Shown piece by piece: positions 22,103-64,000 of a stretch of DNA of 64,000 bases. Under the pieces are notes generated by a model, which saw only the letters and a list, made by a program, of their open reading frames with translations, was not told the DNA's origin and made no database searches. Origin of the DNA: Gemmatimonadota bacterium (GTDB taxonomy: Bacteria > Latescibacterota > UBA2968 > UBA8231); the NCBI GenBank assembly GCA_002712305.1, contig PATE01000063.1, positions 56,773 through 120,772 of the forward strand, read 5' to 3'. Each line of letters begins with the position of its first letter. Positions within the stretch are counted from its first letter, which is position 1. The translations under genes and the position numbers were made by a program.

Positions 22103-24466
22103 ATGCCAACACCGACCCCCCGAACCACAGGAGTCCGGCCCCCAGTTTTGGATCTCGTCGAGCCCATCCCCGAGCATCTCGACACCCCTCTGAGGCAAGA
22201 ACTCCACCCGGGCGAACTACCCCTCGTCCTTCTGATCGCCGACATCGCTACTGACGGCAACTTTGCCGAATCGGTCCTCACCGTCACCGATGAGCGACTG
22301 CTGATCCTGCACGCCAACGGATCCGACGTGCCCGTCGTGGAGAGTATCTCCATCGATCGTGTTTTGCGCGTGCAGACACGGAATCACGTGGGCAGTGGGT
22401 CTCTGGTGGCCGACCTCGACGAAGGAACGCGCGAATTGGTGCGTTTCTCGCAGGGCGCCTACTTCAAGTTCTCTTCTGTGCCGCAGGCGGTCGAGGCACT
22501 TCTGACCCGTCCGTCTGAAGAGATTGCCGAAGAGCCTGATGCGGAACGCGCCATACCGCCGCGCCGCATCGAACACTGTGAAACGTGCGGCCGTGCCCTC
22601 AAACAAGGCACGAAGGTCTGCCCGAACTGCATCAAGAAACGGGAGACATTCTGGCGCCTGTTCTCTTACGTTCGACCCTACAAGAAGATCGCCCTCTTCG
22701 GCTTCGGGCTGACCCTGACGATGACCTTCGTCGGTCTACTGCCGCCACAGTTGAACCTGATCCTCATCGACGATGTGATCACGCCCGTCATCGTCGAATA
22801 CATGGAGACAGGCGCCGACGGCATTCCGAAGCAGAAGCTCACTCCCGATGATCCAAAAACGCCACCCGCCGAGCAGGCAAAGCTGCTGATCTGGGTCGTG
22901 GCAGGGCTTTTCAGCATTCACTTCGGCCGCTTGCTCATCAACGCCACCCGCTCCTATACCCTGGGCTGGCTGGGCCAGCGCATCACCTACGATCTGCAGA
23001 CGGAGATCTTCAACTACCTGCAGTTCCTGTCCCTGTCGTTCTATTCCCAGCACAGTACGGGCCGCATTATGACGCGGGTGACCAGCGACACCGAGCGGAT
23101 GCGGGGCTTCATCACCACCGGCTTTCAGGACATGGTCATCGCCATCCTGACCCTGATCGGCATCGGTGCGATGCTGTTCTGGATGAACTGGGAGCTGGCC
23201 CTGCTGGCCTTGATCCCCACGCCGATCATGCTCATCGTCACCCAGATCTATCGCAAGCGCATCCACTGGACCTTCCATACGATCTGGCGCCGCATCGCTT
23301 CGTTGAACTCACAGCTGGCCGACACGATTCCCGGCGTGAAGGTGGTCAAGGCCTTCGCGCAGGAAGATCGCGAAAGGAAGCGCTTCGATCGGCGCAACAC
23401 CGAGCTGCGTGACTCACGCATGGAGTCGGTGAAGATGAAGGCGTATTTCGTTCCCGGCATCGCCTTCATCACCGCCATGGGATCGGTGATCCTGTGGTGG
23501 TTCGGTGGCAACCGTGTTTTGGAGAACACCCTTTCTCTCGGTCAGCTGCAGGCATTCATCGCATACATGGTCATGTTCTACGGTCCAGTGCGCGAACTGA
23601 GCGTCCTGTCCGATCAACTCGAATCGGCGGCGACGACGGCAGAGCGGGTCTTCGAGATCCTCGACACCGAACCCGACGTGACCGACCCCGTCGACGCCAC
23701 CGACCCGGGCGTTCTGCAGGGACACGTCGAGTTTCGAAATGTGTCGTTTACCTACGACGGTTTCGCCCGAATTCTCGACCGCGTCACCTTCGATGTCGAA
23801 CCGGGTGAAATGATCGGCCTTGTCGGTCCTTCCGGTGCAGGCAAGTCAACTCTCGTGAATCTGATCTCCCGCTTCTTCGACGCCTCCGACGGCGACGTCT
23901 ACATCGATGGTGAACCGATCACCTCATTACAGCAGGGCAAGCTTCGCTCGCAGATCGGTGTGGTCTTGCAGGAGCCGCTTCTGTTCCAGGGATCGATCGC
24001 ACAGAACATCGCCTATGGTCGACCCGACGCGCCGCACGCCCGCATTATCGCCGCCGCGCGTGCTGCCAATGCCCATGACTTCATCATGAGATTCCCGGAC
24101 GGCTACGATACCGAAGTCGGTGAACGTGGCGGACGACTATCCGGCGGTGAGCGCCAACGGATCTCTATCGCCCGGGCTCTGATCTGCGAACCTATGATTC
24201 TGATTCTCGACGAAGCGACCAGTTCAGTGGATACGGAAACCGAACACGAGATCCAGGAAGCCCTCGAGCGACTCACCGAGAATCGCACGACCTTCGCCAT
24301 CGCCCATCGCTTGTCCACACTCAAGAATGCCGATCGGCTCTTCGTCATGGACAAGGGACGTATTGCCGAGGTGGGCACACACGCCGAATTGCTCGAGAAA
24401 GAAGATGGCGTCTATCGACGACTCGTCGATATGCAGACCGAGTTGGCGAAGGTGAGAGCCGTGTGA
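22103..24466 (+). CDS. ABC exporter with extra N-terminal domain and zinc ribbon
   Basis: 787 residues, well over the 580-620 normal for a half-size exporter. Residues 1-145 are a soluble region of beta-strand character (LLIADIATDGNFAESVLTVT, PVVESISIDRVLRVQT). A zinc ribbon follows near 155-180 (CETCGRALKQGTKVCPNC). The six-helix transmembrane domain covers about 190-510, and the nucleotide-binding domain has Walker A GPSGAGKST, signature LSGGERQR, Walker B MILILDEATSS and the switch His in IAHRLST. The gene overlaps a DUF1854 gene by 4 bp. That pairing is known for ABC exporters annotated as cyanophycin-metabolism associated, but no cyanophycin synthetase is present here. Substrate unknown; a homodimer is expected. 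Confidence 0.92.
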   Translation: MPTPTPRTTGVRPPVLDLVEPIPEHLDTPLRQELHPGELPLVLLIADIATDGNFAESVLTVTDERLLILHANGSDVPVVESISIDRVLRVQTRNHVGSGSLVADLDEGTRELVRFSQGAYFKFSSVPQAVEALLTRPSEEIAEEPDAERAIPPRRIEHCETCGRALKQGTKVCPNCIKKRETFWRLFSYVRPYKKIALFGFGLTLTMTFVGLLPPQLNLILIDDVITPVIVEYMETGADGIPKQKLTPDDPKTPPAEQAKLLIWVVAGLFSIHFGRLLINATRSYTLGWLGQRITYDLQTEIFNYLQFLSLSFYSQHSTGRIMTRVTSDTERMRGFITTGFQDMVIAILTLIGIGAMLFWMNWELALLALIPTPIMLIVTQIYRKRIHWTFHTIWRRIASLNSQLADTIPGVKVVKAFAQEDRERKRFDRRNTELRDSRMESVKMKAYFVPGIAFITAMGSVILWWFGGNRVLENTLSLGQLQAFIAYMVMFYGPVRELSVLSDQLESAATTAERVFEILDTEPDVTDPVDATDPGVLQGHVEFRNVSFTYDGFARILDRVTFDVEPGEMIGLVGPSGAGKSTLVNLISRFFDASDGDVYIDGEPITSLQQGKLRSQIGVVLQEPLLFQGSIAQNIAYGRPDAPHARIIAAARAANAHDFIMRFPDGYDTEVGERGGRLSGGERQRISIARALICEPMILILDEATSSVDTETEHEIQEALERLTENRTTFAIAHRLSTLKNADRLFVMDKGRIAEVGTHAELLEKEDGVYRRLVDMQTELAKVRAV

Positions 24467-24960
24467 CCGAGTCGACTCAATCCACGGACGGATTTCTCGA
24501 TGCCAAGTCGATCCGCATCGAACGCAGCGAAGCCCGTACCCTGACCGTCCATATCGCTGAGGAGCGATACGAAGACGTCAGCGTCCGCCGTGCCTTCCCA
24601 CTGGAGATGGCTGACGCCTTTATCGGTTTGATCGGTGCTGATGGGAAGGAAATCGGGATTATCGAGGACATGGCCTCGATGGAAAGCGGCAGTCGAGAAA
24701 CCCTTGAAGCGGAGTTGCAGCGAACCTACTTCCTCCCCGTGATCACCGACTTTGGTCACTTGGATGAGGAGTTCGGTGTCATCCACGCAGAGGTGGAGAC
24801 AACCAGCGGCCCACGCCACATCGAGATCCGCGGCATTCGCAGCAACATCCGACTTCTGTCCCGGCAACGAGCATTGATCGAGGACACGGATGGCAATCGC
24901 TACGAACTGCGCGACTATCACCGACTCCCAAAGCTTACGCGCGAGATCCTCGGACTTTAG
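24463..24960 (+). CDS. DUF1854-family protein coupled to the ABC exporter
   Basis: 165 residues starting at a GTG that overlaps the ABC stop (GTGA), so translation is probably coupled. No signal peptide or membrane helix is visible; it should be cytosolic. The chain has the DUF1854 features: an early VSVRRAFPLE-type segment, MADAFIGLIGADGKEIGIIEDMA, ETLEAELQRTYFLPVITDF, and a C-terminal half ending RALIEDTDGNRYELRDYHRL. DUF1854 proteins have no established biochemistry but are repeatedly found next to ABC exporters of this class, suggesting an accessory or regulatory subunit. It ends about 30 bp before the end of a convergent damaged gene. Confidence 0.85.
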   Translation: MTESTQSTDGFLDAKSIRIERSEARTLTVHIAEERYEDVSVRRAFPLEMADAFIGLIGADGKEIGIIEDMASMESGSRETLEAELQRTYFLPVITDFGHLDEEFGVIHAEVETTSGPRHIEIRGIRSNIRLLSRQRALIEDTDGNRYELRDYHRLPKLTREILGL

Positions 24961-62960: not shown

Positions 62961-63005
62961 GGGTCTGCTTCAAAAAGAGGGAAAGAACATGTCAGAGAAG
63001 CTCGG

Positions 63006-63033
63006 AATATACGGATCATGCTCTGTATTGAAA
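63006..63033 (-). promoter_or_regulatory. Predicted promoter of cysH
   Basis: On the minus strand TTTCAA (63028-63033), a 16-bp spacer, and TATATT (63006-63011). It would start transcription about 38 bp before the cysH ATG. It is divergent from, and close to, the promoter at 63051. Confidence 0.4.
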
Positions 63034-63050
63034 GACTCGGGACTTTTCTC

Positions 63051-63080
63051 TTGACAATGTGTTGGCGCCCCGGATAGTTT
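63051..63080 (+). promoter_or_regulatory. Predicted sigma70-type promoter of the structured RNA region
   Basis: TTGACA (63051-63056), an 18-bp spacer, TAGTTT (63075-63080). The -35 is consensus. The predicted start near 63087 is two bases before the first perfect helix of the downstream region. Confidence 0.6.
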
Positions 63081-63086
63081 GGACAT

Positions 63087-63583
63087 CGTTCGAAGCAGAG
63101 GTCAGAATCGTCGCTTCGAAAGCACCAGACAGTAGAAAAACGTCTTCTGTCTATCATGACTTTCAGCACGCCGCAGACTGTGCAAACACTGCGGCCCTAT
63201 TCAACGGAATGACGGTGAACCGCAACCCGATCACCAGCACCGGCCAGCAAATGGCCGGGTTTACCTGCGCCGGCTTCAGTGCGGCCGGCATGCTTTCCGG
63301 GGCAACTTCCGGCACGCATGCCCGGCATCAGCACTTTGGCCATCTGGCCACGGGTAATGGGCGACTGATCGAACGGTTTCAGATCGAATGTGTTCGATCT
63401 CATGCTATGTGGCCGGCAGGGATGATGGCAGATGTCGCTGTCAGCGACGTCAGGAAGAAAATGGCCGTCATCAAGCATAATAGCCGGCCTGCAGCGGGAA
63501 GAGATCCTAAAGGTTGAGAGTTCGCGCGAACGCGCATAGAGACTCGAGCCGTAGGGATCCGCTCCCTACGGCTCGTTTTTTTT
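63087..63583 (+). ncRNA. Candidate structured non-coding RNA (class unknown)
   Basis: About 497 nt between a predicted promoter and an intrinsic terminator, with an exceptional density of perfect helices: TTCGAAGC/GCTTCGAA (63089, 63113), AGACAG/CTGTCT (63127, 63147), GCCGCAG/CTGCGGC (63170, 63189), CCGGCCA/TGGCCGG (63240, 63252), GGCATGC/GCATGCC (63287, 63316), AGATCGAA/TTCGATCT (63381, 63393), GTCGCT/AGCGAC (63434, 63443), and GCGC/GCGC (63524, 63532). GATCGAAC at 63367-63374 can pair with 63392-63399 instead, excluding the AGATCGAA hairpin. I see no hallmarks of tmRNA, RNase P, 6S or SRP RNA. A coding alternative exists (ATG 63209 to stop 63517, 102 residues; no family recognised), and a minus-strand frame at 63197-63478, so the non-coding call is an inference. 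Confidence 0.4.
63545..63583 (+). terminator. Strong intrinsic terminator of the structured RNA region
   Basis: CGAGCCGTAGGGA (63545-63557) pairs with TCCCTACGGCTCG (63563-63575) in a perfect 13-bp stem with a 5-nt loop, followed by eight T residues (63576-63583). Confidence 0.9.
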
Positions 63584-63586
63584 ACG

Positions 63587-63638
63587 AGCGGCTGCAGGCT
63601 CTGGAAGGATCGGGACAGAGCAAGCAGCCGCTTTTTTT
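63587..63638 (+). terminator. Second intrinsic terminator, long bulged hairpin
   Basis: AGCGGCTGC (63587-63595) pairs with GCAGCCGCT (63624-63632), and GCTCTG (63598-63603) with CAGAGC (63616-63621), with small internal bulges; seven T residues follow (63632-63638). Two terminators within 60 bp is unusual. Confidence 0.8.
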
Positions 63639-63681
63639 GTCGATGACCCCGTTCGAGACGGGAAAGGGACCCGATCACAGC

Positions 63682-63724
63682 GTGGGAACCGCCTCCGGGC
63701 CAAGGAACCGGAGGGTGGGACCGC
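63682..63724 (+). promoter_or_regulatory. Structured leader before the helix-turn-helix gene
   Basis: A 7-bp hairpin, CCTCCGG/CCGGAGG (63692-63698 with 63708-63714), is flanked on each side by nearly identical stretches, GTGGGAACCGC (63682) and GTGGGACCGC (63715). The leader ends in AAGGAG, 8 bp before the ATG at 63753. It partly recalls riboswitch-like leaders (the GGGACCGCAAAACGC stretch), but does not fit any class I know. Confidence 0.4.
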
Positions 63725-63752
63725 AAAACGCAGCAACGAAGGAGATCAGCGC

Positions 63753-64000
63753 ATGCAGAAGATTCCACGTGACTGGATCGAGCGAGCCGCTCGGGTGTAC
63801 AACAGCAACGCCGACGCGAGTAGAGCTCTCGGCATCGCTGGTGGGACATTCGGCCGCCTGTGTCGCCAGTACAAGATCGAAACACCCTTCGCCCGTCAAC
63901 GTCGTGCGCGCCGCTCCATTGTCGCACCCACAGCGGTATATCTGTTTTCTCGACGCCAAGGACGAAGAGATCTGCATGTTCCCAGATCTCAAGCAGGTCG
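63753..64000 (+). CDS. Helix-turn-helix protein, N-terminal part (runs off the window)
   Basis: 82 codons with no stop to the window edge. AAGGAG 8 bp upstream gives a strong start. Residues about 7-45 (DWIERAARVYNSNADASRALGIAG) form a Fis/HTH-8-like helix-turn-helix: ASRALGIAGGTFGRLCRQY resembles the DNA-recognition part. A basic stretch follows (FARQRRARRS). The family is not determinable from the fragment. Its position after two terminators and a structured leader suggests post-transcriptional control. Confidence 0.5.
   Translation, partial: MQKIPRDWIERAARVYNSNADASRALGIAGGTFGRLCRQYKIETPFARQRRARRSIVAPTAVYLFSRRQGRRDLHVPRSQAG

Follow-up and report, generated by a model that had tools for sequence, protein, structure and literature searches.

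A putative translation-sensing attenuator with two terminators in front of an ABC exporter operon from uncultured bacteria

In Bacillus subtilis, drugs that target the ribosome induce an ABC exporter through the 53-codon leader of the bmrB-bmrCD system (PMC4191407). Its small leader ORF overlaps a terminator, an antiterminator and a possible anti-antiterminator, a pair of ABC exporter genes lies behind it, and it is the translation of the leader that decides, the peptide not being the signal (PMC4191407). Leaders of the E. coli trp type are short, carry a run of control codons and use the position of the ribosome as the sensor that selects among three mutually exclusive hairpins (see also PMC4191407). 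Tandem terminators with a possible antiterminator are found in the rimP leader of some Gammaproteobacteria (PMC2965389).

The locus described here lies near the 3' end of a 64,000-nucleotide stretch of DNA (the window) and is most likely, judging from its sequence, the front end of an operon, made of a promoter, a leader of about 100 codons and two back-to-back terminators that a conserved alternative fold could undo. With this layout, the downstream genes are probably switched on or off by the translation of the leader. We lean, if only slightly, towards a ribosome-mediated transcription attenuator of the bmrB/bmrCD type for an HTH-ABC-ABC-DUF1854 operon. The overlapping switch elements, the pair of ABC exporter genes and a peptide that is not itself the signal would recur here, as would the decisive role of translation, which is proposed from sequence. 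Unlike bmrB, which encodes 53 amino acids and has one terminator inside the ORF, the leaders found here have 84–107 codons and two terminators after the stop codon, and the operon includes an HTH gene and DUF1854; a sequence relation between the two systems is neither seen nor expected. The proposed switch also resembles the trp type in its three mutually exclusive hairpins and in the ribosome position as sensor, but it has no control-codon run, methionine being only mildly enriched. It differs from the rimP leader in gene and sequence and in the single nested antiterminator that covers both terminators. The features of the locus are the following.

63051..63078, + strand: promoter TTGACA-16-GATAGT, sigma70-like, 10/12 matches, kept in five other genomes; start site at about 63085
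63209..63517, + strand: leader ORF of 102 codons (84–107 in relatives), ending inside the antiterminator; disrupted in G002
63404..63417, + strand: possible anti-antiterminator 5' strand, pairing with 63483-63495; no counterpart shown in the second genus
63486..63515, + strand: antiterminator 5' strand, with pairings P1 (63486-63495 with 63591-63600), P2 (63496-63500 with the T1 3' arm), P3 (63503-63508 with 63554-63559) and P4 (63512-63515 with 63547-63550)
63524..63535, + strand: small hairpin directly 3' of the stop codon; present in the other genus with a different sequence
63545..63583, + strand: terminator T1, 13-bp stem (63545-63575) and T8; one such palindrome per genome, at the element locus
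63588..63638, + strand: terminator T2, stem of 8 + 6 bp and T7; kept in six genomes, G002 being without it
63753..63998, + strand: first downstream gene, encoding a small HTH protein; fused near 63900 to part of a DUF1854 gene that is read in a different frame, beside the contig end

The promoter-like sequence and the very strong terminator from which the original prediction started are thus both borne out. The promoter stands at the same position in five of the six other genomes that carry the element, and the contig of the sixth (G009) ends inside the element. The prediction had missed T2. Together, the intrinsic terminators T1 and T2 separate the leader from the structural genes. They are virtually identical between genomes that differ at about 45–63% of synonymous sites, and the window departs from its sister genome, G001, only in how long one T-run is. 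In G015 and G002, T1 is not followed by a T-run. In four genomes, scans of stretches between T2 and the HTH gene revealed nothing resembling a promoter. The region between these two features (63641-63752) has a high GC content, can fold and shows partial conservation inside each genus (e.g., CCGGGCCRAGGAACCGG); it may be another structured leader. On the 5' side of the promoter, there is also conservation at 63000-63050 (AATATA...ATTGAAAG), where the promoter of the divergent cysH gene is probably located, back to back with that of the leader.

Relatives and gene order

Homologs were found only in six other genomes, which gives, with the window, seven loci in three related genera. All of the sequences compared are MAGs, and the relatives carry labels such as Gemmatimonadetes or Candidatus Latescibacterota. 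When related genomes were searched at the DNA level, a full-length homolog (72% identity) came up in G001, the one other genome of the window genus, and four genomes of a second genus (G005, G009, G012 and G015) gave partial matches. A profile of the 3' end added a seventh, degenerate copy in G002, where the leader frame is broken and T2 is lost. A covariance search of 47 genomes of the class returned only these seven loci; weak matches in G040, G003 and G035 did not, on inspection, resemble the element but rather generic terminators or unrelated sequence. The T1 palindrome, sought in 84,980 species, occurs in 16 stretches, five of which match the known loci and the rest of which belong to scattered taxa. 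With the 3'-end profile, no HTH paralog turned out to have a copy of the element next to it. In other genera, the HTH loci looked at do not adjoin these ABC genes. A MurD search of viral contigs yielded no relatives.

Where the contigs reach far enough, the gene order is M42 peptidase - MurD - (cysH, divergent) - element - small HTH - ABC - ABC - DUF1854. The exceptions are G015, where cysH lies elsewhere, G009, whose contig ends as noted above, and G002, which has no HTH match. In four of the seven genomes (G002, G009, G012 and the window), the neighbouring ABC genes are incomplete or absent, owing either to real deletions or to assembly errors. At 63900-64000 of the window, the HTH gene runs into a DUF1854 coding fragment in another frame at a shared 15-nt sequence, CGTCGTGCGCGCCGC, at the contig end, and the two ABC genes found between HTH and DUF1854 in G001 and G015 are absent. 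A second ABC-exporter/DUF1854 locus lies at about 22154-24951 of the window (G000:C84:78926-81723).

The small HTH protein (63753-63920, MQKxPRDWIERAARVYNSNADASKALGIAGGTFGRLCRQY...) belongs to a multicopy family with one to nine short proteins per genome in this bacterial family (L015-L044) and has no Pfam match above cut-off. Among named families, the two downstream ABC proteins and the DUF1854 protein score best with CphA_assoc_ABC (NF052233) and CphA_assoc_prot (NF052234) of NCBIfam, in each case below the curated cut-offs, and no cyanophycin gene was identified beside the downstream ABC/DUF1854 genes.

The leader frame and the alternative pairing

Followed from the common TGA towards the 5' end, the 63209-63517 frame is free of stops over 565 codons from six genomes, whereas the two remaining forward frames have 21 and 14; G002, with its disrupted leader, is the exception. 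Were stops as frequent here as in those two frames, the chance of such an open frame would be about 2e-8 if all six genomes are counted and about 1e-4 if only three lineages are, both figures taking no account of common descent or of codon usage. The leader ORFs of the window and G001 differ by 0.30/0.27/0.31 at the three codon positions, compared with 0.23/0.13/0.54 in cysH, 0.31/0.21/0.63 in MurD and 0.07/0.05/0.45 in the HTH gene. The third positions of the leader ORF are thus more conserved than those of its neighbours, and the third-position (synonymous) excess expected of purifying selection is absent. The original prediction, which was of an RNA, held that protein-type substitutions in this frame would speak against it; the pattern is indeed not protein-like, but the frame has plainly been kept. 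Both the open frame and the even divergence would be explained by a leader ORF with an unimportant peptide: translation of the ORF seems to matter and its product does not, except for the last ten codons or so. These last codons are nearly invariant between genomes, and their CCT and GCA codons (at P1) are identical in all, although these codons make up 12% and 14% of the Pro and Ala codons in neighbouring genes. The composition of the leader peptide is unlike that of neighbouring genes (rich in Gly, Met and His, poor in Leu, Glu and Tyr). Methionine is enriched 2.4-fold in the leader (p ~1e-4, uncorrected for the 20 residues tested), an ATG lies 16–18 codons before the leader stop in five of six genomes, and the leader contains no run of control codons. 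No clear, good Shine-Dalgarno sequence precedes its start.

The end of the ORF forms a block, GGCCTGCAGC-GGGA-GATCCY-GGTT, that overlaps the stop codon and has nested complementarity to T2 and to both arms of T1. When the nascent RNA is folded up to the T2 5' arm, GGCCTGCAGC (63486-63495) pairs with GCTGCAGGCU of T2, GGGA with the T1 3' arm, GATCCY with the T1 5' arm and GGTT with AGCC at the base of T1, the whole closing around the small hairpin that follows the stop codon. This alternative pairing of the block with T1/T2 would account for the near-invariance of the ORF end and of both terminators. In each of six genomes, the folded energy of the block with T1/T2 beats 197–200 of 200 shuffles of the 5' strand. 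For transcripts starting at the block, P1 has a probability of 1.0 in every one of the six genomes and P3 one of 0.48–1.0 in five of them, P3 being weak in G012 (0.03). Masking the stop-codon region in silico, as a terminating ribosome would, brings T1 back to 0.95–1.0. In the window, a hairpin (63404-63417/63483-63495) hides the block as long as the RNA is free of ribosomes (P1 0.04); a ribosome placed on this hairpin raises P1 to 1.0, much as in a classical three-hairpin attenuator. The matching hairpin hardly forms in the nascent RNA of G001 (0.01), so that the anti-antiterminator is only weakly indicated. The full RNA at equilibrium favours T1/T2, apart from T1 in G015, which implies that the switch would be kinetic.

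In the alignment of the antiterminator, 89% of cells are paired versus 26–45% in slid controls, and column shuffles do equally well. Covariation is not demonstrable in the antiterminator because its pairs hardly vary, and chance pairing is made easier by the self-complementary CTGCAG and GGATCC cores. The prediction had also pointed to two mutually exclusive helices at 63367-63400. The alternatives exist (GATCGAAC or AGATCGAA with GTTCGATCT), but the conserved switch is located at 63486-63638, and the exclusive pairing of the ORF-end block with T1/T2, which had gone unnoticed, is the more important one. As far as its defining features were tested, the locus appears to have the anatomy of an attenuator, with a terminator, a maintained frame that overlaps the switch and a computed exclusive antiterminator.

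Folding of the leader body and competing readings

Within the window genus, the two-sequence consensus fold of the ORF body has a z of -5.3, beyond that of coding controls (mean -0.5, min -3.0), which makes some RNA-level constraint likely in this genus; two-sided changes include 63241/63257, 63429/63464 and 63437/63445. This fold, together with the conserved third positions and the lack of protein-type constraint, would suit a sensor other than the ribosome, in which the upstream ~400 nt bind a ligand or a protein (possibly of the HTH type) and set the same T1/T2 switch, the frame being incidental. This reading, although it survives best among the competitors, is unlikely: the body can hardly be aligned between genera and its folding excess is not general, unlike what a ligand-binding domain would show, no Rfam family matches and the frame is maintained.

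Also unlikely, and next in order, is an ordinary gene for a small protein of about 100 amino acids, with its own promoter and a double terminator, in which the complementarity of the ORF end to T1/T2 has no function. The frame is open in six genomes behind its own promoter, and the C-terminal tail is similar across genomes (K-P-x-T-G-P-A-A-G-x-D-P-G-G). However, the three codon positions diverge evenly, no Pfam domain matches the peptide above cut-off, its length and middle sequence drift freely, and plain terminators are not expected to keep primary-sequence identity, yet both do.

The original prediction itself was a free-standing structured non-coding RNA of about 500 nt that ends at T1. 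Its count of at least eight perfect stem-loops is accurate: exactly eight perfect, non-overlapping hairpins (at least 6 bp, loop of 3–20) lie between 63087 and 63583, T1 included, versus 1.8±1.1 (max 6) in dinucleotide shuffles and 2.4±1.5 (max 7) in 100 other stretches of the window. The fold z is -7.0 for 63080-63583, -5.6 for T1 alone and -3.6 for the ORF part of the body, the mean of 84 background stretches being -0.3 and the lowest -3.4. Seven of the eight stem-loops sit in the fast-evolving body. Over the same stretch, G001 has three hairpins of at least 6 bp, one of which is T1, and the first helix (63089-63120) is not retained in this sister genome; the fold z of the body is -0.2 in G001, -1.3 in G005, -1.75 in G012 and -0.8 in G015. 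The hairpins are thus mostly private to the window genome, and the excess folding is not common to the homologs. Although the structure is conserved in part inside the genus and some of the changes are two-sided, a free-standing RNA is quite improbable, given this absence from homologs, the maintained frame and the two terminators with an antiterminator that precede a conserved operon. What stands of the prediction is a switch-like structured region with a promoter, terminators and nucleotide-level conservation; what falls is the self-standing RNA with a fixed body fold.

The prediction recognised no known class; a covariance search of the window against Rfam gave no match at gathering score, and the element is absent from Rfam. 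A relaxed search gave only Atu_C4 (24 bits for a cut-off of 80), rejected as a terminator-like match over T1. tmRNA and bacterial RNase P RNA were likewise rejected, clear copies being present elsewhere in the element-bearing G001, G009, G012 and G015. The window contains no tRNA.

A DNA-level element (a protein-binding or recombination site whose GGCCTGCAGC/GCTGCAGGC inverted repeats and T1 palindrome are bound as double-stranded DNA) is very improbable: the palindrome is perfect, with one site per genome at the element locus, and the neighbouring ABC genes are truncated or fused in four of seven genomes, but T-runs follow both stems in most genomes, the layout is strand-specific with a promoter upstream, and the deletion junctions looked at do not coincide with the repeats.

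A model for the switch and its meaning

For the attenuator, the following model can be drawn, in which translation of the leader, control by the ribosome, the signal and the regulated target are all putative. Transcription would start near 63085 and the leader ORF (63209-63517) would be translated behind the RNA polymerase. A ribosome that arrives at the stop codon soon enough would cover 63486-63515, so that T1 and T2 would form and transcription would end. If translation is slow or stalled upstream, 63486-63515 would remain free and would pair with the T2 5' arm (P1) and with both T1 arms (P2 and P3); once this antiterminator is formed, the polymerase would read into the HTH-ABC-ABC-DUF1854 operon. 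When nothing is translated, the 63404-63417/63483-63495 hairpin of the window may act as an anti-antiterminator, a step not borne out by the nascent fold of G001. The candidate signals are a general inhibition of translation or, as a weaker lead, methionine shortage; a ribosome stalled at the ATG located 16–18 codons before the stop would leave P1 free. That the peptide drifts points to a sensor of translation speed in general, as in bmrB-bmrCD.

In favour of the attenuator count the open but evenly diverging frame, the near-identity of T1 and T2, the computed pairing of the ORF-end block, the rare codons kept at P1, the shared promoter, the lack of a detected promoter between T2 and the HTH gene in four genomes, the conserved gene order with the ABC exporter and the bmrB-bmrCD precedent. 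Against it count the missing covariation, the equilibrium preference for T1/T2, the self-complementary cores, the broken frame and missing T2 of G002, the weak P3 of G012, the T1 stems without a T-run in G015 and G002, the lack of a clear Shine-Dalgarno sequence and the truncated ABC genes. On the whole, the element is most likely a switch of a known kind from bacteria of an uncultured lineage and not a free-standing new RNA class. Its unusual traits are the long drifting leader and the single antiterminator that serves two terminators. A stronger claim can be made only tentatively and is on balance doubtful, namely that these elements form a new attenuator class, in which a nested antiterminator in the last ten codons of a drifting leader disarms two consecutive terminators and senses translation speed (or methionine supply) for an HTH-containing twin ABC exporter operon.

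For the scanning of genomes, the lesson is that the dense perfect stem-loops were mostly private to one genome and that the conserved switch adjoined them. To our knowledge, no translation-sensing attenuator has been described from this uncultured lineage, and the model, if true, would add one. It would also exemplify a pattern of constraint in which stops are kept out of the frame, the peptide is free to drift and the 3' strands with two alternative partners are frozen, and it would link a little-studied twin ABC exporter/DUF1854 operon to translational stress.
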